Shown here piece after piece: positions 4,901-45,096 of a stretch of DNA of 64,000 bases. The notes beneath the pieces are model-generated. The model was not told the DNA's origin. It saw only the letters and a list, made by a program, of their open reading frames with translations, and made no database searches. This DNA is from Labyrinthula sp. Ha. Taxonomy: Eukaryota > Sar > Bigyra > Labyrinthulida > Labyrinthulaceae. The position numbers and the translations under genes were made by a program. Position 1 is the first letter of the stretch; every line of letters starts with the position of its first letter. The stretch is from positions 248,001-312,000 of the forward strand of contig JAALGZ010000022.1 in assembly GCA_015227615.1 (NCBI GenBank), read 5' to 3'.

Positions 4901-7307
4901 AAGCTTCAATGATCGGGTTCTCTTTCTCTTATGTTAATATCTCAAGGTGTGTGCAAGTTTGTATTTTAAAACTCGAGACCAGTATTAACCGTTACCAAAA
5001 CATTTTGTATTACAAAGTTACTTAACGGTAGGCTATGATCTATATCAGACTACCATTTGCAAAGACTAAGATGGATTTTTAATCAGATCAAGAATATTTG
5101 GACTAATATTAGAGGTTAATTGGTGGCTCACAGTTTCAAAATTATTCCGCCAAACTTGTTTCTATGATAAGATGATATCTAATTTTTGTCAATATCAAAG
5201 GCAAAAAAGATTTAATTACTATTTCTAAAAACCGAAGTGACATTTTTTAACAATATTCTACCATATTATTTCAAAACCCAAAAATAGATTTTTTTTGCTG
5301 TTTTAAAAGTAAACTTAAAAAATATATATTTTATTACTTAGGTGGCTTTTCTCTTGTAGAGAAATGCAATATAAGCTGATTCTGTGACACTATATCTGCA
5401 TACCGCTACTTAGAGGAAAGCAGTGAAAAACCTCTAAGACGTATCCTATATCTAACTATTGCACATGAATATAAAAAATTAACAATGAATAGTTCCAAAT
5501 TATCCGAACAGAGAAGAATTTAGTTTGAAAATAAATAATAAAATAGAGAATATTGATAATAGTACGTAAGAAAAGCTGATTTAGTAGAATAATGAGCCAT
5601 GTGATAAAATACTTTTTGTAGAACACATAAGCCAAGAATAAACTTAGAGTAATTTGCCCTAAAAAAGAAAAGAATGTTTTCACTTTTGTGAATTCAAATA
5701 TTCAATATTTTGCCTCTTCAAAATTCAAAAATACTTTAGAAAGGAAAAGACTTCTTTGATTTTATTTTCTCTGATAATACTTCTGATTCAGAGTTGCTTT
5801 ATGTGTTTGACCTTACAATATAGATCCAACATAAACAGGCACAGTAAAAATGAACTACCTTATACTAGCTTAGAAAAATTGTTGGTGAATTTAGTTTTAT
5901 GAGTCATGGTACAGAAACACAAAACCATTTTGGTGGTATAAACTTACGTGGCTGGGGGTTTTCTTTCATAGGAAATGTTTACTCTAAGTTGAGCAACAAT
6001 CTCTGTGCAGGGCATGTCAATTCACTAGACTTCATTCCTTGCATTTAATATGATTGTATGAATATTGTAGCTAGCAATCCAACACAAAAATATTTAAACT
6101 TCAAGGAATCCTTGTATTGCCTTCTAGAGAAGACACGTTGAGTTTCTATTCTCCCAGCATAGTCTCTCATTAGGGATAATCACTGTGCGGTAGTTACCAG
6201 TTGAAGGCGTTCATTTTCTAAATCACCTAGACAGATTTTCAATGCATTTGGCATATGTTGAAAACAAAATCCAAAGTCATTTATGTTAGTATCATCTATG
6301 TTCTTGTGGTACCTAGTACACGTAGATCACATACTCAATTCAGCAGTTATAACATTATTAGACTCACAGTAGGATTATTAACTGCAAACTTTGCTTCTGG
6401 GGAATTAATAATTAAGAATAGAAGCATTATCAACCACTTGAAAGTATATGGTTAATAAGTAGTTGATAAAGAGGGTAGAGAACACAAGAGTTAGTGGTTT
6501 AGAATCAACAACACATACAAGAGAATGATATTTATTGGCAAGGAATTCATTTCAGCACTTGTTCCAAAGATAACTCTGTTAGCTAAACTTAAAATTAAGC
6601 CAAAAACATTTTTATCGATTAGGTACATTTTATCTTTAGCAATGCCTTATAACAATAAAAAAGCGATTCAAGTGCCAGGTAGCTCTTTAAAATCTACAAA
6701 AAATGGTTGAAACCCTTATTTTTGCCGTGGTAGGGTTGGTTGTACCTGAAAATAGAAATATCTACATAAATAACTAGTTTCTACGCCCAAAATATAAGTA
6801 TTGAAGCACTTAGACTTCAGTAGCTCTGCGTTAGCTGGGAAGCACTTTACATATGCACAGATATTGCACCCAAGATTAAAGAAAGAACATGTTATATATA
6901 TAGAAGACTAAATTTGCAATAGAAACTTGTGTTGTATCTTACTGCCCTCTACATCATTGTCTTGTTTCAGTAAATGTGCAAATTATTAGATTGCTACGAC
7001 TTCTGTAAAATGAAAACAAAGCTATAAGGGGTGGTCACCAAGCTTTCCTACATTAGTAATAAATTATTTAGAAGACTTTACCTTGACTTAGCAAACCAAT
7101 TCCCAAAGACAACAAACAAACCTATTTTCTTTCCCTTTGCTATGAAAGTTTTTTTTTATTCCTGAAACTAAAAGTCTGTTAAACTAACGGATATTTCACC
7201 CAGTATCGGATAAAACGAAACTTCGCCGAAATAAATTAGGACACAAAGATTGCCACATTCGTACATATAAATTGCCCAAAATTCATTTTCTCCAAATTTC
7301 TAAAAAA
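4901..7307. other. AT-rich intergenic stretch, nothing recognised
   Basis: About 2.4 kb with only short open frames, none protein-like enough to call. It may hold the LTR of the old element to its left, but I could not match it to any other copy in the window. The last 120 bases are the likely promoter and leader of the ubiquitin-like gene. Confidence 0.5.
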
Positions 7308-9059
7308 ATGCAACTCGAAAACGACGATACTTCTCTGCCTCCCTCTTCTACGTATTCAGATTCCTCTGTAAATCAAAACCCACCAAGCTCATCCCTCGAG
7401 GCAATTGCATCCATGAAACTCAAAATTCTTTGTATGGATGGCTCTAGCTTTCACATAGAACCACTCTCTTCAACGAACACAGTGCTGGATCTAAAAGAGA
7501 AGATAGCTCTTTTAAAGCAGATAGACATTGAAGTTCAACGCTTAATTTACAGAGGAAAAGTTCTTAAGAATTTTGATAAACTGGAAAAGTACTCTATCGA
7601 AGATAACTCGTGTTTACATCTCGTCTGCCGAAGAGAATCGCCCTCTCCTGCCTTGCCTCGATCTAACGGCTCGTCACAGAACCTTTCAACGGCTAACCAG
7701 TCAACTGATAGATGGGATGGAGAAAATGCTACCCAAGGTCTACTGGCGTCACCGCCCCAGGTAAATACTGGAGTACAAGCAGGAACAAACACTGGAGGAA
7801 ATAATAGTTTGATGGTAAATACTGGGGCAATTTCTAGGTTGTTGATGCATCAAATACCAAGTACAAATGTTCGAGTTGCTGGGTCCTTATCACGGGCGCG
7901 TCCCCGGGGTCGTCGACCAGGTAGATTGGGTCGGACGTTTGCTGTTGGGGACAATCTCGAACACGTATACCAAGGCTTTGCCACTCTGGACACCATAAAG
8001 TCTGCTGAGGAATACGCGGAGAAGAATAACATTACTTTTTTTAAGAAATCAGAAGAAAGAAAATTATATCGACGGAAATCAGATCCTGATCTATCGAAGT
8101 TTTTATCTGTCGACTATCTTGACGACTCTACAGAGAGGGCTTTTTGTAAAGAAGATATTGAAGAAGCAAAAGAGTGTTATGATGATACTTTTATTCCACG
8201 AGTTTTTACAAAAGGTCAATGGGTTGATTGCCGAGACACAGTAAATCAGTGGTTAGACGCTACTGTAACTGATGTCCTCGAAGGAGGGAGGAAAGTAAAA
8301 GTTCACTATAATGGCTGGGGTCAACGTTGGGATGAAGTCATTGATGCAAATTCACCACGAATTGCTCGATTTAGGACCAAAACAAAAAATTCTTCTAATT
8401 GTCAGAATTTTTCACCTACAATAAAGCACTGGGTTCAAAATACACCAAAATTAAGAGCAGTAAGAAAAAGCAGACATCAACTTTCTGCACTACTGCCAGA
8501 ACTTGAAAACCGAATGAGCTCTTTGATAAATGACATTAGAAAGCTTCGATCTAATGTTGATCAAACTGAATACATGGATAACGTGGCTCGAGTCTTGAGC
8601 TTGTCTTCGAAAATGGACATAATGGGTCGCGCTATGGTTGACACTGGCGCTGCTTTGGCCAACCGACCTCACTTTCGAAGGCGATATGAAGCTCTAAATG
8701 TAGAAGGATCAATAATAAATTTTTTTCATTTTTCAATGCTACCGTTTGGGTTCAACGCTTGCTTTGAAAAAGACAGAGATGTGAATGGAAACTGGAACAG
8801 AAAAGAACGGCAAGAGCTATTAAACAGAGCTAACTTTGAAAAAGATACTTTTGAGATGCTCCCTCTTGCTCATGATGTTTCTCGAGAAAGAAATCAAGGT
8901 TTGGAACTTCATATCCACACTATTATTGCTTCTGAATTAGGACGTCGACCCCCAAGAGAAGAACCTCAACCAGAAGAACAGAGTGAAAACATGGCCTTGA
9001 TTGAAGAGGTGACTGAAGAAATGACAGAACAAATTGTAAATCAAACAGAAGCCGCTTGA
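7308..9059 (+). CDS. Ubiquitin-like domain protein with a Tudor-knot/chromo-barrel domain
   Basis: Single-exon gene of 583 codons ending in TGA. The ATG at 7308 is the first methionine of a frame that is open from 7272. Residues about 36-108 form a ubiquitin-like domain (VLDLKEKIALLKQIDIEVQ, then LIYRGKVL). Residues about 294-355 (WVDCRDTVNQWLDATVTDV, VHYNGWGQRWDEVI) look like a Tudor-knot or chromo-barrel fold, of the kind found in MSL3/MOF-type and Agenet-like proteins. A serine/arginine-rich linker lies between them, and the C-terminus is acidic, rich in Glu. A helical stretch around residues 390-460 resembles the central part of large ubiquitin-like scaffold proteins such as BAG6, but weakly. 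Role inferred: a shuttle or scaffold that couples ubiquitin-type signals to chromatin or RNA. It ends 25 bp from the convergent PDE6D-like gene. Confidence 0.75.
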   Translation: MQLENDDTSLPPSSTYSDSSVNQNPPSSSLEAIASMKLKILCMDGSSFHIEPLSSTNTVLDLKEKIALLKQIDIEVQRLIYRGKVLKNFDKLEKYSIEDNSCLHLVCRRESPSPALPRSNGSSQNLSTANQSTDRWDGENATQGLLASPPQVNTGVQAGTNTGGNNSLMVNTGAISRLLMHQIPSTNVRVAGSLSRARPRGRRPGRLGRTFAVGDNLEHVYQGFATLDTIKSAEEYAEKNNITFFKKSEERKLYRRKSDPDLSKFLSVDYLDDSTERAFCKEDIEEAKECYDDTFIPRVFTKGQWVDCRDTVNQWLDATVTDVLEGGRKVKVHYNGWGQRWDEVIDANSPRIARFRTKTKNSSNCQNFSPTIKHWVQNTPKLRAVRKSRHQLSALLPELENRMSSLINDIRKLRSNVDQTEYMDNVARVLSLSSKMDIMGRAMVDTGAALANRPHFRRRYEALNVEGSIINFFHFSMLPFGFNACFEKDRDVNGNWNRKERQELLNRANFEKDTFEMLPLAHDVSRERNQGLELHIHTIIASELGRRPPREEPQPEEQSENMALIEEVTEEMTEQIVNQTEAA

Positions 9060-21508: not shown

Positions 21509-23525
21509 CTACATAAAGCAACTCATACATATTTGACGTAATTCTTTTACTGAGCACCCACCTAGGGTGTGCAAAGTAACATGTATTTCTGAATTAACAA
21601 GAGATACCGTGCATTGAGCTTCTAAGGAAAGTACAACTCTGCAGGCAGATTTGGTAATTAAAGGTTCTTCAACACTTCCAAGATCGATAGCCTTTTGAAC
21701 CAGTTTGACAATAAAAAGTGTAAATTTCCAGTGCTTAAAACCTTCTATACGCGTAAGGGAGAAGTGCTTTCCCCATGAGTACATCAAACCTTTTACTTGC
21801 AGGTTAGGCAAGGATTTCGGAGCGAGATTGGGTACTAAGAAATATTTTCCAGCCATAGCGACAGAAGGAAGCTCAATTAGAATCAAATGCTGAAGTGCAA
21901 CCTGAATAAAAAACCTAATTTCATCGTTGCTGTAGCGTTTCAGTACATCAAACAATAAGTTTCTTGAGAGAAATCCTGAAAATATATAATATCTATAATC
22001 AGAAAAACTTTCTTTCGATGTTTTGAAAACAAAGGAATGCAATTCAGGATCATGAAACAAAGTACCGAATGCCGTAGCTAGCCAAGCAGGAGACAACACA
22101 ACTAAGCTTTGAAGTGTAGAGGAATCTTCAAGATTTCCAAAATATACCACCAAGCTTTTAGCAATATACTTTCTCAGCAGTTCCTTTGCTTCAAAAAATA
22201 AAAATCCTTGTGACTTTGCTAATTTTAAATACTCCATGTACTTCATATGCGTATATTCCATCTGTACAAAATCCATGAATATCACTTCCCCAAGTGAGAT
22301 TGCAGTTCTGTTACCCATATTCCTGAATGAAACTGTAGTTTCTATTTTTTCTTGAAGTATTTTAACTTGTTCAGCCTTTCTTGAGTATGAATTTTCCAAT
22401 GGAAAAAAATAATTTTGACTGTAATTTTGAAGAGACAACTTTTTAGAATACTCTTTATGCAAACTTTTCAGCGTCTTATTTACTTGAAAGAAAGCAGGTT
22501 CACTGCCTTTAAACATCTTTGTTGCTTTCAACCAATTTGTTCCCACTAAAAGCACATGAGAACGAGAGGCATTTTGTTGAAGACTGTTTAACCAAAACTT
22601 TAATTGTTCCAAGTATTTTCCATTCAGCTTTGTAGCATTGAAAACGACTAAGTACGTACCAAAACTAGAAATGAAAAGCTTATGAACTGATCTAAAACTT
22701 TCTTGCCCCCCAAAATCATAAAACTGAAGAAAAGTGTGTTGCAATCTCATAAACTGATTCCATGTTGACTTGTTCTTAAAATAACTTGAGTTTGTTGAAA
22801 TTTCTTCTACCAGAGACCTCTCAAACTTGAATTTGAATTTCCTTTTCTTCTTAGAGAAGCAGTTACTTAGTACATTGTAAGATGGTACACAACTTTTTAC
22901 CCTTTGAACATTCATTTCATTACGAGTAAATTTAGTCCACTTTCCAAAGTTCCCAATAAGAGCTATATTCTGTAAATCCAACATTGGCGTAGATCTCTGT
23001 GTACGTGAAAATGGCTTATCCAAGAGTGAACCAAGCACTGAAGTCTTACCTGATCGTGCACTTCCGAGTAACAATACCCTGTTTTCAGCAAATTCCACTT
23101 TCCTTTCATAGTTTTCATGAAGCTTTGCCATCAACATTTCTTTAAATTTTTCTTTAACGGAAGACAAAAATTGTGTCTTATGAACCGTTAAACAAAAGAA
23201 ACTTAACGACATGTGACTTGAAGCTAAAGAACTTAAAATTGCTTCATCAGAAGATAAGATCTGAGAAAAACCAGGTGCAAGTCTATTGTTGAGTAAAAAG
23301 AGGAATAGGTTACTCAAAATGCTTCAGGAAGCAAAGTTTGGTTATGCAGGTTATCAAGAGCTCTTTTGTATCAGGGTCTAGTATTCCAAAATTGTGTTTT
23401 TCCTCAAGGCTATACTTAAAAGAATGTTGGATTTACTAAAACTTGTTGAGAAACTTCAAATTTGGCATGATCCCCAGTATCTTTCTGAAACTAATGGTAT
23501 TGAAACTTGACCCAACAAACCTAAG
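21509..23525 (-). CDS. Roco protein: LRR, Roc GTPase and COR domains (5' exons incomplete)
   Basis: Roco proteins couple a Ras-like Roc GTPase to a COR dimerisation domain. The large exon runs 23282-21509. It carries a P-loop GSARSGKTS, a switch-II-like DFGGQE, and VGTNW where the guanine-specificity motif would be, which is weak for the usual NKxD/THxD. About 300 residues of COR follow (SLGEVIFMDFVQMEYTHM, VVLSPAWLATAFGTLF, SGFLSRNLLFDVLKRYS). Upstream, a 31-nt intron (23283-23313) and a 33-nt intron (23410-23442) join short exons whose text is leucine-rich repeat-like (SFNTISFRKILGIMPNLKFL, CITKLCFLKHFE). Earlier LRR exons probably lie beyond 23525 but cannot be fixed. No kinase domain follows COR, unlike LRRK2. 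Confidence 0.8.
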
Positions 23526-32600: not shown

Positions 32601-33189
32601 ACAAGCAACGCTTCAGTCAAAATAATGAAAATAAGTATCTACCAATATATTTCACCGGAGACATCAAGTTCAATTGATAGCAACTCAATTTTAATATATG
32701 GGTTACTAAAACTATTTCACACAATCAATGATACCCTGAAGTTAAAGGGCAACCCTGTCAGGGAAATGGATATCGGTCATGAACAATACTCCCACCAGAG
32801 AAGGCAAAAAATTGACCTTTTCTCATAAAAAATTCATCTAGATGTATATTGATTGTGAATATATGTTTTTATATTATACGACCAGAGAAGGTGGTGAGAA
32901 AGGACCACTTTGAGTGTTATCTTCCAAAGGTTTTAACTCCATCTACTTATATTGTTTTCTTTTCTTCTGGCATATAAAATTTTGGAGTGACAAACTCGTA
33001 ACATAAATATACAATTGAGTTAAATAAAATATCAGAGTAAAATCTATGGTAAGTTCATAGGTTTAATAAATGTTATGGCTATACGGGAATAACCCCATTA
33101 TCATAGACTTCTAAAACTCCCTTGTATCGTAATAAAACTCAATGCTGTATTACCGTAGCTATCTCGATTTTTTTTTGCAATCTGAATCC
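26658..33189. other. Long gene-poor region
   Basis: About 6.5 kb with no confident gene. A TA-dinucleotide run lies near 27118-27140. Between about 28.9 and 30.2 kb base composition rises toward that of coding DNA and short frames occur on both strands (for example minus 29529-29771, basic, with KKHYSLLVDTG), but none makes a recognisable protein. A 67-codon plus frame at 32625-32828 is likewise unsupported. Confidence 0.45.
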
Positions 33190-33392
33190 TGTCTTTTCTT
33201 GTGCACGTTTTTTCAGATAAAGGTTATTGTGTATTAACAGTTAACTTATGACATATATAGAACTTATGTCAACGGTTTATTTATGACAAGTATACAGCTA
33301 GTTTCTATAGCATGAATATATAGTACAGTTGGTACTCACATGGTACACACATATCGCAATACTTTGCGTGAATAACGTGTCATAACATGACA
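33190..33392 (-). repeat. 3' LTR (left end) of the young Ty3/Gypsy element
   Basis: 203 bp, TGTC...GACA ends, nearly identical to 41106-41308. The inner edge abuts the polypurine tract at 33393-33402 (AAAGGGGGGA on the minus strand). Confidence 0.97.
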
Positions 33393-33402
33393 TCCCCCCT
33401 TT
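33393..33402 (-). other. Polypurine tract of the young Ty3/Gypsy element
   Basis: AAAGGGGGGA read on the minus strand, directly next to the 3' LTR, the standard place for priming plus-strand synthesis in this family. It overlaps the pol stop codon (33401-33403) by two bases. Confidence 0.9.
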
Positions 33403-36400
33403 AGGCTGAACCTGTACGTCTTTGTTGGAGAAAACAAAGTTGAGCAGGCGGGGTTAGATCCAGGCCGCATGTGGTCCAATTCTCTCTGATGTTATTCCAA
33501 CGTCCAAAGAATTCGATTGTTCTTCTAGCTGGAAACATAGTCGTAAGCATCGTATAAAATATTTCTGGTTTTCTTGAAGGTCTCAATGGTTGAGAATAAA
33601 AATATTTATTAAAAGCTTTTATATTATCTTCTTCGAATGTATTTTGATATTGTACTTTTTCGCTTGAACGCATTTCGAATACAAGGCATGTCTGCTGGCT
33701 ATGTTGGAGAAAGTAGCCTAGAGATTTATGTAATTTACCTGATTTATGTCGTTTAATCCAAGTCATTTCGTCTACCAGAAAGAAAGATAAATCCTTTGTC
33801 CATTCTAACACTGTTAAAAAGCTGTGATTTGTAACCCAAATAAAAAGGTAACTCCCATAAGGGAAATGATTGAGAGGTAATTTCATCTTCTTAAAGGTAG
33901 AGTTAGAAATGGTAGGATAAGTAAGTGAGACCCCACGAGTTGGATTGCGAGATCCGACTGTCCAAGGTGGGTCTAGTATAATGAGTGTGTAAATATTCTT
34001 GTTAGCAAAGGGATGATCAAAAACAATATCTAATGCGTTCTCCATGTAAAGTTGAATATTGGGAGGTTCCAAGTAGAAAGTTGAGAGATCATTAAGCAGA
34101 GTAAAAGTATTACCACCCTCATATAAAAAGCGTAGAGGTACTTCTTTGTCTTTGGTAAGGTTTAAGTAGGTTATATCAACAAATTGTTCGCGAATTTGAA
34201 TAGTTAAACTTCTTCCGTCGCGATTAAAGGTTTTTGGCAATAGAGTATCCATATTGTTAGTGTCGCTGGAGGAAGAATTAGTAAGTAGAGAATAGAAATG
34301 TGAAAGAGTTTTCCAAAATTGTTCTTGCGTCAATATAAACTTGTAACAATCTTCGATTAAATGCTCATTTTCTTTTAGCGTGGATATTTTCCTAGTTTCA
34401 TATTCTTCTAATTTCCTTTCTAAATCCTGCAGAGTTTTAAAATTTGTATTACCTAAAAACAGTTTACAAGAATCAGTACCATATTCAGAAATAAGGAGTC
34501 TTAAATGTTCCGGATCATTAAGCCCCCTAAAATAAGGAATGGTTACATCTTGTATTTCTTTTTGTCCTACTGTAACTTCTAAATCGAACTGCCTTATTAT
34601 CTCTTCTCGTTCCTTAATCAGATTTAGCTTACCAGGAATATTCTTATGGAAGCCCTTAATTCCAAAGTTTGTCTCGAGAAATTTTCTAGCTCGTTCCACC
34701 TTGAAATGTTTTCCATGAAAAATGCCGATGGCCTGCAAACCTAATAATTGTTGGATTTGGGAAGACATTTGTTGTTTTGATCGGTTTGGGAGATAAGGAC
34801 TGCTTGAATATGCTTCATATTTGCCGCAGCCAAACTTCAGTATTAGTGGTTTTAAAATATCTTTTTCAATTTCATACCAGCCCATCGTGCGTGTTGAAGA
34901 AGGAGCTGCCGCATACCATATTTTGTAATACGAAGACTTACTTATAGCAGCAATCCTTGTTTCCCCCCTCTTTTTTGAATTTTTCTTTTTCCTGTTCTTT
35001 GTCTTAGATTCGACAACTCTTTTTTCGTCAATAACCTCAAGTTCTTTTAAAATATTGCGTTTCATATAAGTATCTTTGAGTTTCAGTTCAATGAAAGAGC
35101 GAACCAGTGCAGGAAGATCTTCATACAGCTGGAATAGATCTTGCCAAGTATTTCGGGAATCTTCAAAGCCTCTCCATTTAACCAACGCTTCATATCGTGC
35201 ATAGTTTCCATCGGTTAATCGAACTGACTTAATCTGGTCCACTTCCAACTCTTTCATATTATGCATAAATAATGATTTAAGGTTTGGATGAGAGGTAGGA
35301 GGCTTCGTCCCGTAGAACCAGAGACGAGCTCCATGTACCAATTTCGTGTTCCCTAAAATACTTTCTACCTCATATAAACTTTCTGAAACTACATCAATTA
35401 CTTGGTATGGGCCTTGCCAAATAAGTTTTATTTTCGACGAGATTTCTTGAGTGCCATGAGTGGAGACCATAACGTAATCTCCAGGGGCGAATTGTGTAAT
35501 TAGACTTCGTGTTTTGTTCTTTCGCACCAGTTCTGCTTCTCTTTTTAGCAATACTGAATTGTAGACCTTTTCCATTCGAGTTTCCATTATTTTATGAACT
35601 TCTTCCACCCTGCTTATAAGTTCCTCCACATCATCAGGGAGCAATATATCATCAGCCAGTTTGATGGCAAAAAACTTTCTTGACTTTCTTATAAGAGGAA
35701 TCTTGAGCCTAAAATTAAGGAAAATTTCATTTGGTGTAAGGTTTGCCCTGCGAGAAACAGGCCTGTTGTTTATAATATATGCAACGATCGGTAGAAGTGT
35801 TGGCCAGTCGCGTTCATATAATCCATATAGCGACGTCAAAGACCTCATTAACTCCAATATTTGAGAGTTGGCGGTTTCAACACTTCCGTTGGACCAAGGC
35901 GAATATGCTATTGTGAAAGTCTGTTCGAATCCAATAGCTTTAGATAACTTCTGCATCAATACATTAGCGAAGTGGCTTCCATTATCGGTTATAATGCAGA
36001 ATTGCTCAGCCAGTCCTAAATCAGCACGCCACCTAAGAAGTGCATCAACCATCCCCTCGGCAGTTGGAGTCTCAGTGTACTCTAGCATCATCTTTTTTGA
36101 GCAGGAATCTAGGAGTACTAATATGTACCCCGTAGAGTTGACGTATAAATAGTCAGCCCTAATAATTTCCCTAATGCGTTTAGCAACTGGGGTCAACTTA
36201 TAGGGACGTCTAATTAAAGCTGGTTCCCTTTGGCAGTGCAAACATCTTCTTCTAAAGTTTTTATAGAGAGCATTAAAATCATCTTTTGTAATGTCATGAA
36301 AATACATCTTTTTGAGAACCTTGGACTCTGCACTCCTGCTAGGGTGAACCATGTTTGTATGATTCATAACGATGAATCTAGCGATAAGAGTTTTTGGTAT

Positions 36401-39190
36401 TACCAGCTTTTCCTGAAAGTAAAATAAGTTCTCTTTTTCATGGCACTTGTCTAAAAAACTTTTGGGAAGGTTTTTCTGATGTTTCTTTATAACACGATCG
36501 TTGAGATGTTTATGTTGGCCGTAGTAGAAAGGAGATAAGTAGGAGATGTGTTCGGTAAAGAGTTCTTCTATAATAGATTGAAGGTCGCTCCCAACACTTT
36601 CGTCTACTGGTTTTAGCCAATCTCCTTTGCCAACAGGTCCTCGTTTATTAGTATTCGCATCTTCATTCCTAAGAGACATCTGTGAGTTTGTCGATCTTAT
36701 ATTCGCGCAATAAAAATGCTCTACTTCATCCTCAACATAAAATAGTCTAGCCAACTTTGCTTCGTATTCTAGAGCTTCCGAAAAGTCATCAAAGTCCAGA
36801 GAGTCAAAATATAGTGTAGAATCTTCTTGAACTGCCTGTAACTGAGCAATAAGCGGAATGTGTTCTTCCTCTTCTTCTTGATCCAAATCTGCATGCATTA
36901 GTATTTCCCCCTCTAATCCTTCTTTGAACTCGTAACCTAGTTGAAGTGGCTCCTCAAGCCTCGCTAAAAGAGGTTCAGATTTAGTTGCCCAGCGCGTTAA
37001 AAGATCGCTGACGAAATTGTCTCTAGACGGTATATGAAATACCGTCAGGTCTACCGATTGTAACCGGATCGCCCATCTATATAGGCGATCCCAGTAGATT
37101 CGCTTTTCATTTTCTTTCGTTTTAAGTATTGATAATAAAGGTCGATGGTCTGTATAAACAAATAAACCCCCAGGGTGGGTTCTCAAAAGAAATCCCACCC
37201 GCTCAAATGCATAAATGATGGGGTATAACTCCTTGCTGGCAATATGCCAACGAACTTCGCTAGTGGAGAAGGATCCACTTAAAAACATCAGCGGTTTAGG
37301 AGCTAAAGCTCTCACATCGTTACTTATATTTTCATGGTCATCCTGAAATATGGCCATAGACCAAACGTCGTAGGAGGAATCGGTAAATAATAATAGGGGA
37401 GCCGAAGCATCATAGGTTGCTAAAAACCTCTTGCTGGCTTCTACTATCGACTTCTTTAATTTAATAAAATTTTCTTCAAGCTCTGGTGTCCATTCAACTT
37501 CTTCCTTCTTTTTCTCGATGTCGATTAGGCGCTTACCCTCCAGATTGGCATAGTGTGCAAAAGGCTTTCTTAGCTCTGCTAACTTAGGTATGTTAGGGTT
37601 TAGCCAATTTGCTAAATACACTATTTGGGCCATCTGGTGCCGATAAATTGGCCTCTCCATCGTCAAAATCTTTTCGTAAAACCTTGGTGAAAAATTCCAG
37701 TATCCCTCCTTAAGCTGTCTTCCGCACCATATTGTTGTTGTTGGTGAGAAGTCGCATTTTCGGAGGTTGAAGCGAACTTGTTTTTGAGCTGCTCGAATTA
37801 AAAGAAGTTTTAACATCTGAAGTAATTTTTCTTCATCTTCAGCATAGACAAGTAAATCATCAAGCCAACATATAACCCCATTTTTGGGTCGTCCAAATAA
37901 TGTTTCTATGCCGTCAACAACCTCGTTAACGACACGATCACAAAAGAGAGCTGGGGTGTTCATCCACCCCATTGGTGCTCCTCTTAAACGCCAAGCTGAA
38001 CGGCGTGTGACCAACGTAAATATGTCCTTTGAATTATCATCAGTTTCAAGGAAATCGAATCCACTTAAGATATCTAGAGTAGCATATACTCTAGATCCTT
38101 TTACTGACAAAAGTTGCCTTTCTAAATTAGGAAGGTTTAGGCTCGTAGGTACGGTTATTTTATTTAACCGTACCATATTCGAAACCATTCGAAATCTATT
38201 CAAAATATTTTCTCTTTTCCATAGTTCCTTCTCAGAGTTAGTAAGCGAAGTCCAGTTCTGCGGCTTATCCATCTTTTTTGGCACAACGAAAACAGGATGC
38301 CCCCAGATGGGATTTTTAGCGGGTTCTACGATCCCAGCATCCTGAAGAGCTTTGAACTTAAGCTCTAGGAATTTTTCCTGCTCAGGCGCTAGTTGGTATC
38401 CATCTGATCTTAGGACACGCACCCCTGGCTTGAGTGTGACCTCGATGGGCGTCATTAGCGACATCTGCGCGTTAGACTGCTTTAATCCAAGAGAGGAAAG
38501 ATTATTTTGAAGTAGCTTTGAAAGGTTGATTTGAGATTCCTTTGTAAGAGTTGATTCTTCAATTTTGATTTTTATAGTGTTAAAGAGTAAAACTTTCTCA
38601 TCTGTTTTTGAAATATTGCCCTCTCCTATCCCCACTTCATTGAATTCCTCAGGTATATTATCAACCATATTGGAGATGAGGATAGGAGGAACAGGCTTAG
38701 AAGCATTAGACACGTCAATAAAGTGTTCATCTGTAACTTCTTCTAAGGGTATCCCTTTTAATTCATTTACTTGAGCTGCTGGACTGCTAATAATAGGCTG
38801 CGCTGAGCTAAGGACTGATTTAAGGTCTTCTTTTATTAACTTGAAAGTCTTGTCCCCTATTAGATCCTTTACAATTTTAGTAATAGAAATATCATATTCA
38901 GTATTATTTTCTATAACATCTGTATTTTTCTGATAAAAGTATTTGTTCGACTTCATCCTATTGTTGAAGAGTAGGAAAAATCGTCTTCCGTTTTGATGAA
39001 ATAGGTTGCCTTGACTAAGTAGATGTCCATCCCGCTCCCCAACAAATATAATAGAATCTCCTAATCTGAAATCAGCTTCTTTGAATACCTCAAATATAGA
39101 ACACCAAGTCTGTAACTTTGAATAAAGTGCTACAAAAGTAAATTCTGATAATATTTGAATAAAGGTTTGAGATTTAAACTGGGATTCCAA
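33401..39190 (-). CDS. pol: Pol: RT, RNase H, integrase, chromodomain, SANT-like region, MT-A70 methyltransferase
   Basis: One 1,929-codon frame, with no ATG required at its start because it is expected to be read as part of a polyprotein. Approximate residues: RT 260-450 with LDDLL at the active site; RNase H 600-730 (LFTDSSYD, YTDHRPLL); integrase zinc region and DDE core 940-1160 (RADYLYVN, TDNGSHFAN, NGSVETAN); chromodomain 1320-1375 (ALVKWRGFEDSRNTW); Lys/Arg linker about 1390-1405; Myb/SANT-like 1420-1510 (LPNRSKQQMSSQIQQLLG). The MT-A70 domain spans about 1700-1915. It has DPPW at 1740-1743, LPLNHFPYGSYLFIWVTN, SRKPEIFYTML and FGRWNNIRENWTTCGL, the same order as METTL3/METTL4/MTA1-type N6-adenine methyltransferases. 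The frame ends at the polypurine tract, so this domain belongs to the element. Confidence 0.93.
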   Translation of the reverse strand: MESQFKSQTFIQILSEFTFVALYSKLQTWCSIFEVFKEADFRLGDSIIFVGERDGHLLSQGNLFHQNGRRFFLLFNNRMKSNKYFYQKNTDVIENNTEYDISITKIVKDLIGDKTFKLIKEDLKSVLSSAQPIISSPAAQVNELKGIPLEEVTDEHFIDVSNASKPVPPILISNMVDNIPEEFNEVGIGEGNISKTDEKVLLFNTIKIKIEESTLTKESQINLSKLLQNNLSSLGLKQSNAQMSLMTPIEVTLKPGVRVLRSDGYQLAPEQEKFLELKFKALQDAGIVEPAKNPIWGHPVFVVPKKMDKPQNWTSLTNSEKELWKRENILNRFRMVSNMVRLNKITVPTSLNLPNLERQLLSVKGSRVYATLDILSGFDFLETDDNSKDIFTLVTRRSAWRLRGAPMGWMNTPALFCDRVVNEVVDGIETLFGRPKNGVICWLDDLLVYAEDEEKLLQMLKLLLIRAAQKQVRFNLRKCDFSPTTTIWCGRQLKEGYWNFSPRFYEKILTMERPIYRHQMAQIVYLANWLNPNIPKLAELRKPFAHYANLEGKRLIDIEKKKEEVEWTPELEENFIKLKKSIVEASKRFLATYDASAPLLLFTDSSYDVWSMAIFQDDHENISNDVRALAPKPLMFLSGSFSTSEVRWHIASKELYPIIYAFERVGFLLRTHPGGLFVYTDHRPLLSILKTKENEKRIYWDRLYRWAIRLQSVDLTVFHIPSRDNFVSDLLTRWATKSEPLLARLEEPLQLGYEFKEGLEGEILMHADLDQEEEEEHIPLIAQLQAVQEDSTLYFDSLDFDDFSEALEYEAKLARLFYVEDEVEHFYCANIRSTNSQMSLRNEDANTNKRGPVGKGDWLKPVDESVGSDLQSIIEELFTEHISYLSPFYYGQHKHLNDRVIKKHQKNLPKSFLDKCHEKENLFYFQEKLVIPKTLIARFIVMNHTNMVHPSRSAESKVLKKMYFHDITKDDFNALYKNFRRRCLHCQREPALIRRPYKLTPVAKRIREIIRADYLYVNSTGYILVLLDSCSKKMMLEYTETPTAEGMVDALLRWRADLGLAEQFCIITDNGSHFANVLMQKLSKAIGFEQTFTIAYSPWSNGSVETANSQILELMRSLTSLYGLYERDWPTLLPIVAYIINNRPVSRRANLTPNEIFLNFRLKIPLIRKSRKFFAIKLADDILLPDDVEELISRVEEVHKIMETRMEKVYNSVLLKREAELVRKNKTRSLITQFAPGDYVMVSTHGTQEISSKIKLIWQGPYQVIDVVSESLYEVESILGNTKLVHGARLWFYGTKPPTSHPNLKSLFMHNMKELEVDQIKSVRLTDGNYARYEALVKWRGFEDSRNTWQDLFQLYEDLPALVRSFIELKLKDTYMKRNILKELEVIDEKRVVESKTKNRKKKNSKKRGETRIAAISKSSYYKIWYAAAPSSTRTMGWYEIEKDILKPLILKFGCGKYEAYSSSPYLPNRSKQQMSSQIQQLLGLQAIGIFHGKHFKVERARKFLETNFGIKGFHKNIPGKLNLIKEREEIIRQFDLEVTVGQKEIQDVTIPYFRGLNDPEHLRLLISEYGTDSCKLFLGNTNFKTLQDLERKLEEYETRKISTLKENEHLIEDCYKFILTQEQFWKTLSHFYSLLTNSSSSDTNNMDTLLPKTFNRDGRSLTIQIREQFVDITYLNLTKDKEVPLRFLYEGGNTFTLLNDLSTFYLEPPNIQLYMENALDIVFDHPFANKNIYTLIILDPPWTVGSRNPTRGVSLTYPTISNSTFKKMKLPLNHFPYGSYLFIWVTNHSFLTVLEWTKDLSFFLVDEMTWIKRHKSGKLHKSLGYFLQHSQQTCLVFEMRSSEKVQYQNTFEEDNIKAFNKYFYSQPLRPSRKPEIFYTMLTTMFPARRTIEFFGRWNNIRENWTTCGLDLTPPAQLCFLQQRRTGSA

Positions 39191-39395
39191 TTCTTGAAGG
39201 AGAAATAAAACGTGAGTTGTTTCTTCATTTGTTGTCGGGACAGCTTGCGGCTTTTTGATAGTTCGCTGAAGCTACCAGTGCCAGCATCCTATTTCTTTTG
39301 CTCGACCTTTGGCGCATCTTTCAACTTTAACGTGATACCAAAAGCCTCTAAGGTGTGAATACCAATTATGATGTCATTCCAAATTGGTGATTCAA

Positions 39396-39700
39396 CTACA
39401 AAAATAGCACTTCACCCAGGTCCAGGGCTAATGTGTCCTGCACCAGGGTTACTCTTACTTTACACACCTTTGACACTGGCACCATTGTATCGTTGGGGAA
39501 TTTGATGTGTTTAATCTTTCTTGGCGCCTGTGTGCTAAGTATGTAAGGCTCGAGTCTCTTGAAGTTTGCTACATTCAGGTCTGATCCAGTGTCTGTAATG
39601 CCTTTAACGGGCACCAGACATTTTTCAACCGGGTTGTAAAGTTGCAATGAAATGCGAGTAGCTTTATCCCCCAGTCTACTAACCACAGGGATCTTCTTTG
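39396..39700 (-). CDS. Retroviral-type aspartic protease region of the young Ty3/Gypsy element
   Basis: Minus-strand frame with GITDTGSDLN, the retropepsin active-site signature, and a following hydrophobic strand. It lies between gag and pol and is in a frame different from both, as is common in Ty3/Gypsy elements that use frameshifting. Limits approximate. Confidence 0.8.
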
Positions 39701-41122
39701 AGCTAGGCTCCGCATTTGTTTTTGTGGATTTTTTGATTTAGCTGCTTTAGAAGGAGGTTTAGCAGCTTTTATTTCTCTAGTCATATTTTTAGTTTTTGAG
39801 TTCCTCTTTTTCTCCCCCTCTGACAAAGATTTAACCACTTCTTCAGAACGTCTTGGTAAACAATGTCTTCTTGAGAAAATAATTTTCTTTAGCGTTGTCA
39901 AGCTTCTACTTTTTGAGGTTAATAAGAATTCATCTAGAGAATAATTGAGTTCAGCTGGTAACCTTTTAAAAACAATCTTTAATATTCGCTTATTGTGAGC
40001 TTTGATTTCTTTTTCGTTCAAATATTTGAGCTTGTTATAGATTTCGTCAAAAAATAAATAGACCTGGTCATCTGTTGTAAGCTTAGTTGACGGCCATTTC
40101 AATGTTTTTTCCAACTCAACAAGACTAGAATATCTTTTTCTGGCTTCTGTTTTTTCAAGGTGTTGACTTAAATAATCAATAATCTTCTTGCCACTTTCCA
40201 TGTCCACTCCTCTGAGCTTTAACGCATCCGCAGCTTTTTTGATTAAAACGCTTTGAACTGTCAGCGTCGGGACGCATTGAGCAATGGACTTGAAATCGTG
40301 CAAAAAGGTTTCTATAGCAGGTGAAGTTAAATCCTTGAGTTTATCAGGAAGCGGAAATTGAACTAGCGGAAAACCGCCTATGTGTCTTGAAGGTGGTTCA
40401 TAATCATATTTGAAAGGTTCGTGCTTCTTTTTCCAAGCGTCTCTGGTAACATAATCACTTCCTGTTTCAGCCCAACTCTCCACGTTAGTCGTCACTTCAG
40501 GATCCTTGCCCGTCACATCATCTGAGGGCGGTGGCAAGCTGTCTTCTTTTTGGCTGACTTCAGTTAACTCTGTTCTTCTAGATACATGAGTCGTGGCTTT
40601 TGAGTTTGAACTGTGATCAGATTTAGCATCGTCGTTTTCAACGGGAAGTGGTGTTGTATGCTCGGTGTTATCTGTTTCTTGCGGAATAGATTTTTTATCT
40701 GGTTCTGTCTTTACTTCAGGCACAGCATTAGCTTTATCTCCGACTGTAGAAAGGCTCTTTGTTATTTCATTCTGCCTTTCAATAATTGAAGTTTCCATAA
40801 GCTGCATTTCCTTCTTTCTGTTATCCATTTCAAGAAGAAGCTTCTCTATCTTCCTTCTTTCTTTTGATACCAAATTCACACTCTCCAGGACTTCGTTTCC
40901 AAATAGCGACTGCGTAGCCTTGCTTCTAGTTTGGATTGATTCATGTTCTTCGTCCCTGGGCATTTTCTCCGTGATTTCTTCCACGACTGGAGGCACCGAC
41001 TGCTTCGCCACGGGTGAACTTGGGGTTTCAGGAGGAGTAGATTGATCTTCTTGCAAGGTAAAGTTTTTATATCTTGATATCCGAAAACTGACGTTATTCG
41101 AATAATGTCTTCTCTTGTGCAC
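39700..41122 (-). CDS. gag: Gag region of the young Ty3/Gypsy element
   Basis: About 470 codons, beginning at the inner edge of the 5' LTR. The first 150 residues are polar and charged with a coiled-coil-like part (RRKIEKLLLEMDNRKKEMQL). A Ser/Thr/Asp-rich middle follows, then a capsid-like helical region (FPLPDKLKDLTSPAIETFLH, LVELEKTLKWPSTKLTTDDQ). The C-terminus is very basic (KAAKPPSKAAKSKNPQKQ). No CCHC zinc knuckle is evident; nucleic-acid binding may rest on the basic tail. The exact start is unclear. Confidence 0.8.
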
Positions 41123-41308
41123 GTTTTTTCAGATAAAGTTTATTGTGTATTAACAGTTAACTTATGACATATATAGAACTTATGTCAACGGTTTATTTAT
41201 GACAAGTATACAGCTAGTTTCTATAGCATGAATATATAGTACAGTTGGTACTCACATGGTACACACATATCGCAATACTTTGCGTGAATAACGTGTCATA
41301 GCATGACA
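41106..41308 (-). repeat. 5' LTR (right end) of the young Ty3/Gypsy element
   Basis: 203 bp, TGTC...GACA ends, three differences from the left copy. As the 5' LTR it carries the element's promoter, firing leftwards into gag. Its outer edge is 37 bp from the hydrolase start codon at 41346. Confidence 0.97.
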
Positions 41309-41345
41309 ATCCGAATCTGCGACAGAGTAACGAAAGCATAAGAAA

Positions 41346-42752
41346 ATGATCCTCAGATTCGCGAAACTGGTCGCCTTAGCCCTAGATAACTGGACTTACA
41401 TTCTATTTGCATTTCTCCCCGTTTACTTCGCTCTTCCATCCTCTATTCTAACTAATGTATTCTTCTCCTATCTCCTTTTGGAAGCTCTCTTCGTTATTTT
41501 TTCAATTTGGAGAAAAAAATCTTACCAAACAAAAATTTACCCTGACGAAAATCAGAAATTAGATGAACTTTCTCGCCTTAAACTCTTTAATGATTGCTTA
41601 CATTCAGGTTTTTCCTTAGATGATCACGAAGGACGAAGAAAACTTGTGTCGGAATGGTTTAATGGACTTCCTTTGGACCAAATTAAATACGACAACATCG
41701 AAGAATGGCTTTCATGGGCTTTTTATGGAATTGAATTGTCGTCTCTTTCCGAAGAGGAGAAAAAACAAGTAACTTTTTTTTCAAAAAAAGCAATTGAACT
41801 TGGGAAGGCACAAGACATCATTAAGCCTGGATTCAGTAAAGAAGCTTCAGAACAAGCACTGCTATTAAATTGGCTTCCAGTTGATATGGCACTTCGTCCT
41901 TTAATTTACTACTTTGTTGTGCGCTTTTTATTCCAAACAATTTTAACTCCATTGTTTCTGAAGTTAATTGGATTTAAAACGTACAAAGAAGGCAATTTTC
42001 CTTTCCATTACTACAAGCAAGAAAATAATAAAAGTAAGAAAAATCCAGTTATATTTTTCCATGGAATTGGAATTGGTTTACTTCCTTATTTACTTCTAAT
42101 TAAGCAGCTAATCCCAGTTTTGGCCAATAGAGACAGAGATTTAATACTAGTGGAAATTCATTTAGTTTCTCAACATATTTTTCCTTTTATGTTCAAACCC
42201 CAGGAGTTAACCCAAAGTGTAAAGAATATTATCGGTAGATATGGTTATGAAAAAAGCGTTATTGCGGGTCATTCTTTTGGATCTTTTGTTGCTGCTTGGT
42301 TAGTTAAATATTCACCTGAAGTTATTGAACATTTGATATTGATTGATCCAGTTTCACTTTATGTTCATCACCCAAAAGCTTTGAAGAATATGTTTGTTGC
42401 AAAGTATGAAGAAATTCCAAGAGATGACTTGCTAGAAAGGCTTTTTCATGTCATTTTTCGTGGCGATCTTTTTATTCAGCTTTCTCTTAAGAGACAGTTT
42501 TTTTGGTGGAATTATATTTTGTTTCCTGAGAAGATTCTAACCGTTAACAAGGAGATTCAAACAGCTATATTCCTTTCAGGGTTTGATGTGATGGTTCCAA
42601 ATGATTTAATTATAAAACATTTTGATCTGATGAAAGAAGGAAGAAAGAATTTTGTTGTGCATGAGTTTAAGGATTGTGAGCATGGAATGTTTATTGGTAA
42701 GAAGGAGTTGACGCAACAGTTCTTCGACGTAATTGATGGGTTTGTAATTTAG
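41346..42752 (+). CDS. Membrane-anchored alpha/beta hydrolase
   Basis: 468 codons, single exon. Two hydrophobic segments at residues about 10-65 (YILFAFLPVYFALP, VFFSYLLLEALFVIF) anchor the N-terminus. The hydrolase core starts near residue 225. It has an oxyanion-side FHGIGIG, a nucleophile elbow AGHSFGS with Ser309, a likely acid in SGFDVMVPND, and the catalytic His in DCEHGMF near residue 441. Similar N-terminally anchored alpha/beta hydrolases occur in fungi, algae and oomycetes; substrate unknown. The retrotransposon LTR ends 37 bp upstream, so the native promoter is displaced by 8 kb or lost. The gene itself is intact. Convergent with VMA21, 34 bp apart. Confidence 0.85.
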   Translation: MILRFAKLVALALDNWTYILFAFLPVYFALPSSILTNVFFSYLLLEALFVIFSIWRKKSYQTKIYPDENQKLDELSRLKLFNDCLHSGFSLDDHEGRRKLVSEWFNGLPLDQIKYDNIEEWLSWAFYGIELSSLSEEEKKQVTFFSKKAIELGKAQDIIKPGFSKEASEQALLLNWLPVDMALRPLIYYFVVRFLFQTILTPLFLKLIGFKTYKEGNFPFHYYKQENNKSKKNPVIFFHGIGIGLLPYLLLIKQLIPVLANRDRDLILVEIHLVSQHIFPFMFKPQELTQSVKNIIGRYGYEKSVIAGHSFGSFVAAWLVKYSPEVIEHLILIDPVSLYVHHPKALKNMFVAKYEEIPRDDLLERLFHVIFRGDLFIQLSLKRQFFWWNYILFPEKILTVNKEIQTAIFLSGFDVMVPNDLIIKHFDLMKEGRKNFVVHEFKDCEHGMFIGKKELTQQFFDVIDGFVI

Positions 42753-43251: not shown

Positions 43252-45096
43252 ATGGGATTCAAGGGTAAAATCCTTTCAGATCGATCTCATTATGAAGAAT
43301 ATATCTGTTCAATATGTCAATATATGGTAGAACTTGATCAAAACTACATTACATCGTGTTCTCACGTATTCTGCAGTATTTGTCTTGAAAACTGGCTTTC
43401 GCAGAAAAAAAACTGTCCGAACTGCAAAACTGATCTTTCATATATTTCAACTTCCTCTCTCTCAAACCTAAAATCCAGTAACAAATTAGCATGGAGAGTT
43501 CTCAGCAAAGTAAGAGTGTCTTGTCCATTTAGTGCTGAGTGCACATGGAAAGGAGATTACTCTGAGCTTCAAAGTCATTTACTCACTGATGCCAGACATC
43601 AAACTCAGTTCTTAACATCAAAGGACTTAGAAACTCTTCTTGAACAAGCAAGAGATAAATTTTCATCTCAAGATTTGAAATCTTCTCTTCTCTTGCTTTC
43701 AAAAGGGATTGAAATGTTAAAAAATGAGACACAAGAGGAAAAGAAATTCATGCTTTCTGTATTTTTAAGTGATAGATCTGATGTTAATTTAGCGTTGGGA
43801 AACCTGGAGATTGCTCTAAATGATGCTGTTAATGGATTGAGTGCTTTTGATGGAGATTACAAAAGGTGGATTCACTTGGTTAATTTAATTGCAAAGATTG
43901 GAAAACCAAAGCAAGCAAAAGAACAATTCCATAAAGCAAAAACTAAATTTAAGGATGAACATGTTGTAAATGAATTTTTGGCTGGAGAAAAAGAAATTGA
44001 GAGATTTGAAAAGAAATTGCAAACTGTGGTTGAACTCTTGAATTCAAGCGGTTTGACAAAGAGTGAACAAAAAGCTTGCTTACTCTTTGGTCATGAACTT
44101 CTTTCTGTTTCTTCTTCTTCTTTGATGATTAAAGTGGTTGTAAAAGCTGAAATTTTGTATGGATCCTTGACTAAAGCAATTAAATTGTGCACATCTGCTC
44201 TGCGAGAAAAAACCGATTACTCAAGGATAAATCAAATTTTACAATCTCTCGGTTTGGATGTTGATTTTTCTGATCAAAACACTCAACTTGAACTTTTTGT
44301 TCTGCTTTCAGAAGCATATTTATTTTGCAATGATTTGGATTCATCCCTGAAATATGTAAAACAAGCTTTGAAATTAGATCCAGATTTAAGCTCTGGGCAA
44401 AAGATGTTTAAAAGGATTAAACTAGTTCAAAGAAAATTGAAGGATGCGGATAAATTTGCGTCAAGGCTAGATTTTACTTCAGCAGAAGAAGTTTTAAAGG
44501 ATTTAATAGAAAATTTTTCTTCTCAGAGACAGCTGAGGGTAAATTCACCTTTAGGTGCACATATTTTTGCGGAAAGGTCGTTAATTTATTACAAAATGGG
44601 TGAAAAATTTTTTGATCAGGGCTTAAAAGACGCTCAAAAAGCACTTGAGATTCAGTCAGATCAGCGGAGAGCCTGGTTAACTAAAATTTATATTTATCAA
44701 CAAAGAAAACAATTTCAAAAAGCTATTGATGAACTTTCCACTGTTGTAAACTCTGAATCTTGGGGTTCTCACGATGAAGTTTTGAAGAATGCATTGGAGA
44801 AATCAAAATTTCTTTTGAGGAAATCTAAAAGAAAAGACTATTATAAAATTTTGACGCCATCTGATGGGTCTTTAAATCTTAGTAGATTGTCATCGGAAGT
44901 TGAGATTAAAGCAGCGTACAAAAAGAAAGCACTTGAAGTACATCCAGATCGAAAAGATGGAAATGATGAAGAGTTTAAGTTAGTTGGAGAAGCTTTTGAA
45001 GTATTAACAGATCAACGAAAGAGAAAATTGTATGATGAGGGATATGATAAGAAAGGAATAGAAGAAGTAATTCAAAGGGAGAAACAAAGACATTAA
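43252..45096 (+). CDS. RING-finger, TPR and DnaJ-domain protein
   Basis: 614 codons, single exon. An N-terminal RING lies at residues about 19-60 (CSICQYM, CSHVFCSICLENWL, CPNCK), followed by a TRAF-type zinc-finger-like stretch (VSCPFSAECTWKGDYSELQS). A long helical region with TPR-like repeats follows (SLKYVKQALKLDPDL; GLKDAQKALEIQSDQRRAWL). A C-terminal J domain begins at about 529 with DYYKIL and has the essential HPD at 564-566, then FKLVGEAFEVLTDQRKRKLY. The TPR-J half resembles DNAJC7 (a TPR-J co-chaperone of Hsp70/Hsp90). The added RING suggests an E3 ligase coupled to Hsp70, comparable in logic to CHIP but with a different layout. Confidence 0.88.
   Translation: MGFKGKILSDRSHYEEYICSICQYMVELDQNYITSCSHVFCSICLENWLSQKKNCPNCKTDLSYISTSSLSNLKSSNKLAWRVLSKVRVSCPFSAECTWKGDYSELQSHLLTDARHQTQFLTSKDLETLLEQARDKFSSQDLKSSLLLLSKGIEMLKNETQEEKKFMLSVFLSDRSDVNLALGNLEIALNDAVNGLSAFDGDYKRWIHLVNLIAKIGKPKQAKEQFHKAKTKFKDEHVVNEFLAGEKEIERFEKKLQTVVELLNSSGLTKSEQKACLLFGHELLSVSSSSLMIKVVVKAEILYGSLTKAIKLCTSALREKTDYSRINQILQSLGLDVDFSDQNTQLELFVLLSEAYLFCNDLDSSLKYVKQALKLDPDLSSGQKMFKRIKLVQRKLKDADKFASRLDFTSAEEVLKDLIENFSSQRQLRVNSPLGAHIFAERSLIYYKMGEKFFDQGLKDAQKALEIQSDQRRAWLTKIYIYQQRKQFQKAIDELSTVVNSESWGSHDEVLKNALEKSKFLLRKSKRKDYYKILTPSDGSLNLSRLSSEVEIKAAYKKKALEVHPDRKDGNDEEFKLVGEAFEVLTDQRKRKLYDEGYDKKGIEEVIQREKQRH

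Follow-up and report, generated by a model that had tools for sequence, protein, structure and literature searches.

The window analysed here, a stretch of 64,000 nucleotides (nt) from Labyrinthula sp. Ha (GenBank assembly GCA_015227615.1, contig JAALGZ010000022.1, positions 248,001 to 312,000), contains a long terminal repeat (LTR) retrotransposon whose pol frame ends in a predicted adenine methyltransferase. The element lies on the minus strand at 33190-41308 (8119 nt), and all of its features given below are on that strand. The LTRs were located by a direct-repeat search, and the LTR ends, the target duplication and the purine tract were checked in the sequence. The 5' LTR (41106-41308) and the 3' LTR (33190-33392) are direct repeats of 203 nt that differ at 3 positions, and the element is flanked by the target-site duplication GGAT (41309-41312 on the 5' side and 33186-33189 on the 3' side). 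The TG...CA ends of the LTRs and the duplication identify it as an LTR retrotransposon. Its pol frame (33401-39190, 1929 residues from a mechanically assigned TTG start, supported by the open reading frame and Pfam) contains, in this order, a reverse transcriptase (RT) domain (residues 332-485, 37736-38197, PF00078, RVT_1), an RNase H domain (residues 567-712, 37055-37492, PF17917/PF17919), an integrase core (rve, residues 1008-1098, 35897-36169, PF00665, 32.3 bits, just below the cut-off of 32.6), a chromodomain (residues 1316-1367, 35090-35245, PF00385, 26.8 bits against a cut-off of 25.1), a p1-like Myb domain (about 34551-34903, located by profile, by a Tetrahymena p1 query at 34694-34885 and by fold) and an MT-A70 methyltransferase domain resembling AMT1 (residues 1734-1910, 33461-33991, located by PF05063, PDB chains and fold) with the catalytic motif DPPW at residues 1740-1743 (33962-33973). 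The order of RT, RNase H and integrase is that of Ty3/Gypsy elements. The PDB matches of the window RT, which are scores taken without a reference RT tree, are the 'Enzymatic polyprotein' 8r0s (68 bits), which we take to be a caulimovirus-type RT, and Ty3 (64 bits). The original prediction called the element a chromovirus, and a chromodomain does follow the integrase; this domain is the sole support for the name, and the portion of PMC12477816 available describes chromodomains in Gypsy lineages other than chromoviruses as well.

That prediction had the pol frame run past the chromodomain into an MT-A70 domain with DPPW, SRKPEIFYTML and FGRWNNIRENWTTCGL, all of which are present as described, and PF05063 matches the domain with 67.5 bits against a cut-off of 23.9 (E 1.8e-18). 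The tail is longer than had been recognised, however, as the p1-like Myb domain ahead of MT-A70 had been missed. Against PDB chains, the methyltransferase part of the window copy reaches 106 bits for MTA1, against 56 for METTL3, 33 for chain 7cv6, presumably of METTL4 type, and 18 for METTL14. A profile of 17 tails gives 240, 160, 84 and 88 bits with the same chains, respectively, and also matches p1 with 79 bits over positions 6-249. Since this profile scores highest with MTA1 and also matches p1, the tail of the retrotransposon is, by sequence, a p1::AMT1 fusion. The earlier list of METTL3, METTL4 and AMT enzymes is thereby narrowed to AMT1 by score, an assignment based on PDB chains rather than on a tree of METTL3, METTL14, METTL4, AMT6/7 and AMT2/5; a tail of METTL3 or METTL4 type was rejected for its lower scores. 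By fold, MTA1 and METTL3 cannot be told apart (Z within 1), and a BFVD structure search gave 15 matches at E<=0.001, the named ones mostly phage methylases, with query-length TM-scores of at most 0.28.

The p1-like part has its best match, in sequence and in fold, with p1 (AMTP1), a subunit of MTA1c, the ciliate complex for N6-methyladenine (6mA) in DNA, and its Myb/homeobox-like domain is followed by a p1-specific continuation. On its own, the domain of the window copy gives no Pfam match. A generic Myb domain was rejected, because p1 is the best match by both sequence and fold and none of the top 20 PF00249 matches overlaps the best 150 of 318 p1-query matches in the genome. The MTA9-binding loop of MTA1 is Tyr-Leu-Gln-His (excerpt of PMC9174199); the window copy has FLQH, and xLQH is common to the whole clade of four pols to which it belongs (window, L021, L025 and L027).

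The genome searched comprises 50.84 Mb in 153 contigs, and the best 150 of 354 MT-A70 candidates and the best 150 of 318 candidates of the Tetrahymena p1 query were scored. These 150 MT-A70 candidates all exceed the cut-off and lie on 69 contigs, 36 of them in open frames of at least 1500 residues and the longest in a frame of 2660 residues. At least 101 of the p1-like matches are followed on their own strand, within 2.5 kb, by an MT-A70 match, as compared with 1 upstream and 0 on the other strand in the same sets; the unlinked matches of either kind (49 each) were for the most part not inspected individually. We read 21 pols, namely that of the window and 20 copies picked for long open frames, a sample biased to intact copies. 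RT, RNase H and MT-A70 are found in all 21, rve in 20 and the chromodomain in 17 (E<=0.001). Because the domain is matched across the genome and carried by every pol read, a chance occurrence of MT-A70 in pol is excluded. Among the 14 Pfam families with matches in the 21 pols there is no C5-cytosine methyltransferase family and no tyrosine recombinase, and with rve in 20 pols these are not elements of the DIRS type. From the best 150 of 660 PF00078 candidates, 27 matches of 480-515 nt were taken by length alone as the Ty3-type RT set, and 21 of these are followed downstream by p1 and/or MT-A70.

Protein-database searches returned the window's own protein and three EukProt gene models, and a second search returned five; one model, P0004, has the same end as copy L021. 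As these eight models are probably from the same organism as the window, the element is known from one genome only at that search sensitivity, and a single-protein query found no relatives in viral contigs. The closest relatives of the window copy are two short fragments at C110:394227 and C132:1490170, which share 87% and 86% identity, respectively, with the final 108 residues of its tail; the others listed, the window itself apart, reach at most 63%.

The window pol is 25-47% identical to the other 20. Trees of pol (RT, RNase H and integrase) and of the tail (p1 and MT-A70), each with 19 rows and built by a quick method, share three large groups. The window clade, with four pols, is one of them; the second has six members and the third seven, next to which L024 is placed. 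Such shared groups are expected if one old fusion was inherited. The pol tree leaves the placement of L022 unsettled, and support for some of the inner forks is low. Of 18 LTR pairs, 9 are at least 99% identical over their aligned part; the stretches read of L017, L019 and L027 contain no LTR pair. The ratio of nonsynonymous to synonymous substitution rates (dN/dS) was compared by domain. In the three most informative pairs (L014 against L011-L013) it is 0.05-0.06 for MT-A70 and 0.11 for p1, alongside 0.02-0.04 for RT, 0.05-0.06 for RNase H and 0.03-0.05 for integrase. The pairs among L011-L013 have too few differences to weigh (two of them give 0.27 for MT-A70, from 8 changes), and dS is mostly saturated in the other pairs compared. 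Among 12 window-related tails, 3 of 66 pairs passed the filter of dS below 1.6, with a dN/dS of 0.07-0.08 over 490-491 codons (dS 0.66-0.82). These low ratios indicate that the tail is under purifying selection and that a function is kept.

The host genome also contains related stand-alone frames. One of 327 residues (L008) is AMT1 by score, with 250 bits for MTA1 against 127 for METTL3, and two are p1-like (L029, 384 residues, 98 bits; L030, 227 residues, 97 bits). The L029 protein has a long C-terminal extension that is possibly Tudor-like by eye. In a tree of 39 rows with references of AMT1 type only, all 19 retrotransposon rows lie across one branch from the 20 AMT1 rows (support 92, not starred), and because of this separation the element enzymes are not recent copies of host AMT1. 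The nearest named relatives listed for host AMT1 are from the thraustochytrids Mucochytrium and Hondaea, and it groups with both and with three further proteins (support 80); on this evidence a labyrinthulomycete host is likely. The genome has two PF00145 matches, whose genomic context was not checked, and one YTH-domain match. No MT-A70 match above 132 bits occurs among the best 150 of 354, the best being an element copy, so there is no obvious single-exon METTL3; one split by introns could be missed, and no search aimed at METTL3 was made.

The sequences establish the domains with their order, spread and long co-inheritance, as well as the purifying selection on them; the mechanism is inferred. 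With moderate confidence, we suggest that the element most likely methylates adenines of its own DNA and thereby mimics active genes. The original prediction left DNA and RNA side by side as substrates; the affinity to AMT1, a DNA enzyme, and the captured p1 part favour DNA. Being fused to pol, the tail would be taken into the particle along with RT and integrase. The p1 part would bind the element's own DNA, either as double-stranded cDNA or as a fresh insert, for methylation by the AMT1 domain in the particle or just after integration. In doing so it might borrow p2 and a partner of AMT7/MTA9 type from the host, or pair with itself. Methylated in this way, a copy would pass for active chromatin and resist silencing, so that new insertions stay expressible, because 6mA sits on transcribed genes in species with AMT1. 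In those species 6mA marks transcribed genes, and in several of them 5-methylcytosine is confined to transposons (excerpt of PMC12695648). More tentatively, we propose that the eukaryotic writer of 6mA in DNA was captured as a ready-made unit, with the catalytic and the DNA-recognition subunit in one chain, and that it writes an activating, not a silencing, mark on the element's own copies. This would be a form of self-licensing that forges the active-gene signature of the host, in a lineage old enough for pol identity to have dropped to ~25% within the genome and with insertions that are still young.

Several observations weigh against self-methylation. In vitro, MTA1 binds S-adenosylmethionine stably only with p2, and MTA1, MTA9, p1 and p2 are said to depend on one another for activity (both from an excerpt of PMC9174199), so the tail would have to rely on p2 and AMT7 of the host, or would have evolved around them. 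Neither a p2 nor an MTA9 part could be recognised in pol, and no search for them was made in the host genome. By eye, the MTA9-binding loop is LRH or VRH in 9 of the 21 pols and not recognisable in 8. The catalytic motif is DPPW in 13 pols, DPPY in 3, DPAW in 2, and DPPG, DAPW and DLPF in 1 each; as 8 of the 21 are without DPPW, some families may have lost or altered their catalysis. Moreover, 6 of the 27 Ty3-length RT matches have no p1 or MT-A70 downstream among the matches listed, and the insertions show no general nearness to start codons (by eye, in the flanks of the 18 LTR-bounded elements).

The motif variation raises the possibility that some families use the tail for binding only. In that case the tail might be a DNA reader that steers the integrase to linker DNA rich in ApT or 6mA close to active promoters, methylation being a secondary role or, in some families, lost. 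Its position C-terminal to integrase and chromodomain is the usual place of targeting domains, and in the window 38 nt separate the element from the start codon (41346) of a frame of 468 residues. The tail is also kept in the 5 of 21 pols whose motif is DPAW, DPPG, DAPW or DLPF, and in the DPAW family the dN/dS of MT-A70 is still 0.09-0.19 (8 of 21 pairs passing the filter). Against targeting, DPPW is kept in 13 pols and, in the other flanks (a small sample with many short flanks), frame ends as well as frame starts are found near the insertions; we regard it as rather unlikely.

It is improbable that the tail instead puts N6-methyladenosine on the element RNA and so aids packaging, translation or avoidance of RNA sensing. 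METTL3 belongs to MT-A70, its fold likeness to the tail is tied with that of MTA1, and the YTH-domain match would fit such a role, but the window copy has about twice as many bits with MTA1 as with METTL3 and the fused partner p1 belongs to a DNA complex (excerpt of PMC9174199). Protection or defence, whether through a mark that keeps a methylation-sensitive nuclease off the cDNA or through an action of the enzyme against DNA viruses that invade the cell, is a hypothesis in print for retrotransposons bearing Dam and Dcm (excerpt of PMC6338049); we give it still less credence here. As for a single chimera, a misassembly or contamination, the frame damage of the window copy in gag and protease would suit such an origin, and the objection fails on copy number. 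The at least 101 linked pairs, the 69 contigs with MT-A70, the open frames of up to 2660 residues, the target duplication and the EukProt model P0004, which ends like L021, leave this explanation a negligible probability.

Several known systems come close to this element. The Tetrahymena MTA1c/AMT1 complex (MTA1-MTA9-p1-p2) provides the best sequence match of both tail parts and the best fold match of the p1 part, it shares DPPW, and its MTA9-binding loop is nearly kept in the window clade; the ciliate subunits are four separate proteins, whereas here p1 and AMT1 form one chain at the end of pol. KnitGypsy-Dnmt3 and SymbioDIRS/SymbioLINE-Dnmt are likewise retrotransposons with a captured DNA methyltransferase, and purifying selection is reported for KnitGypsy-Dnmt3 (excerpt of PMC5890265), but their enzymes act on cytosine and are structurally unrelated, while the present one is a predicted adenine enzyme with a separate predicted DNA-binding subunit. 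DIRS elements with a Dam-like methylase do carry an adenine methylase domain (excerpts of PMC5890265 and PMC6338049); that domain is not MT-A70, and a tyrosine recombinase takes the place of the rve integrase. One sentence in the excerpt of PMC6338049 mentions Ty3/Gypsy and DIRS elements encoding Dam or Dcm together, without MT-A70. Ty3/Gypsy elements with a C-terminal chromodomain or Tudor domain also have a chromatin-related domain after the integrase; the domains named in the excerpt of PMC12477816 are readers only, whereas a predicted writer follows the chromodomain here. According to the same excerpt, the DNA transposon Sola1 combines a predicted DNA-binding part (ParB-like) and an N4-cytosine/N6-adenine methylase in one protein, which differs from the present tail in its prokaryote-type domains and in being a separate gene.

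The original prediction knew of no MT-A70 enzyme in the pol of an LTR retrotransposon, and we found no description of one among the top-ranked results from titles and abstracts of the open-licence PubMed Central literature, preprints being outside this scope. Earlier comparative work on adenine methylases by Iyer, Aravind and colleagues may touch on transposon-borne ones. According to a 2025 survey of 231 eukaryotes, the MT-A70 families split early and have been relatively static since, and the 6mA-AMT1 pathway is directed at endogenous genes; the available text of the survey mentions retrotransposons once, in another context (excerpt of PMC12695648). A genome with at least 101 transposon-type p1-MT-A70 pairs is a clear exception to that picture. 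Retrotransposons with cytosine methylases are already known (excerpt of PMC5890265), and cytosine methylation is a silencing mark in many eukaryotes; the enzyme captured here would come from the 6mA pathway on transcribed genes, with a predicted DNA-binding partner. Whether 6mA causes open chromatin or only follows it thus becomes a testable question, and copies with DPPW and with altered motifs within one genome provide a natural comparison. If active, the fused p1-AMT1 chain might also be a compact tool for writing 6mA.

Upstream of pol, the window copy is damaged. The presumed gag frame (39575-41122, 515 residues from the first GTG) is named by position only; its mechanical start falls within the LTR, and it has no Pfam match. 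A DTGS protease motif (39582-39593) lies in a frame different from those of gag and pol, and stops occur in all three frames between the pieces (39180-39820). For these reasons, either the window copy is inactive or its sequence contains assembly errors, in all probability; open frames are longer in related copies. In L021, L022, L025, L027 and L009, gag and pol share a frame with one stop between them, which is TAG followed by GAT (three copies) or GAA (one) in the first four and TGA followed by GAT in L009. This arrangement looks like programmed stop readthrough, which is known between gag and pol of gammaretroviruses. In L009-L015 and L017, the p1 part is separated from MT-A70 by a retropepsin-like domain, which suggests that one branch of the family has shifted its protease into the tail. 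The motif VLLDSGA is present in L009-L015, PF00077 scores over the cut-off in L017, and protease matches below the cut-off occur in L009, L010 and L011, with none in L015.

Directly after the 5' LTR, at the place of the primer-binding site, the window element has a 12-nt palindrome (41094-41105), and the purine tract AGGGGGGA (33393-33400) stands just before the 3' LTR. A palindrome is found at or near the same place in 17 of the 18 LTR-bounded elements, and in those 17, of 400 positions drawn at random from the same stretch, no more than 3 score equally well; L016 is without it, but its LTR end is uncertain. This feature suggests self-complementary or dimer-based priming, and fungal GalEa Copia elements have a palindrome at the same place (excerpt of PMC5445492).

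Beside the window element, the frame of 468 residues (41346-42752, plus strand) is intact and in divergent orientation, with a weak abhydrolase match below the cut-off. Three other host frames of the window are unusual: 7272-9059 combines ubiquitin with an MBT-like domain (MBT just below the cut-off), 21509-23317 encodes a Roc/COR-like protein (COR below the cut-off), and 43252-45096 has RING, TPR and DnaJ within one frame of 614 residues.
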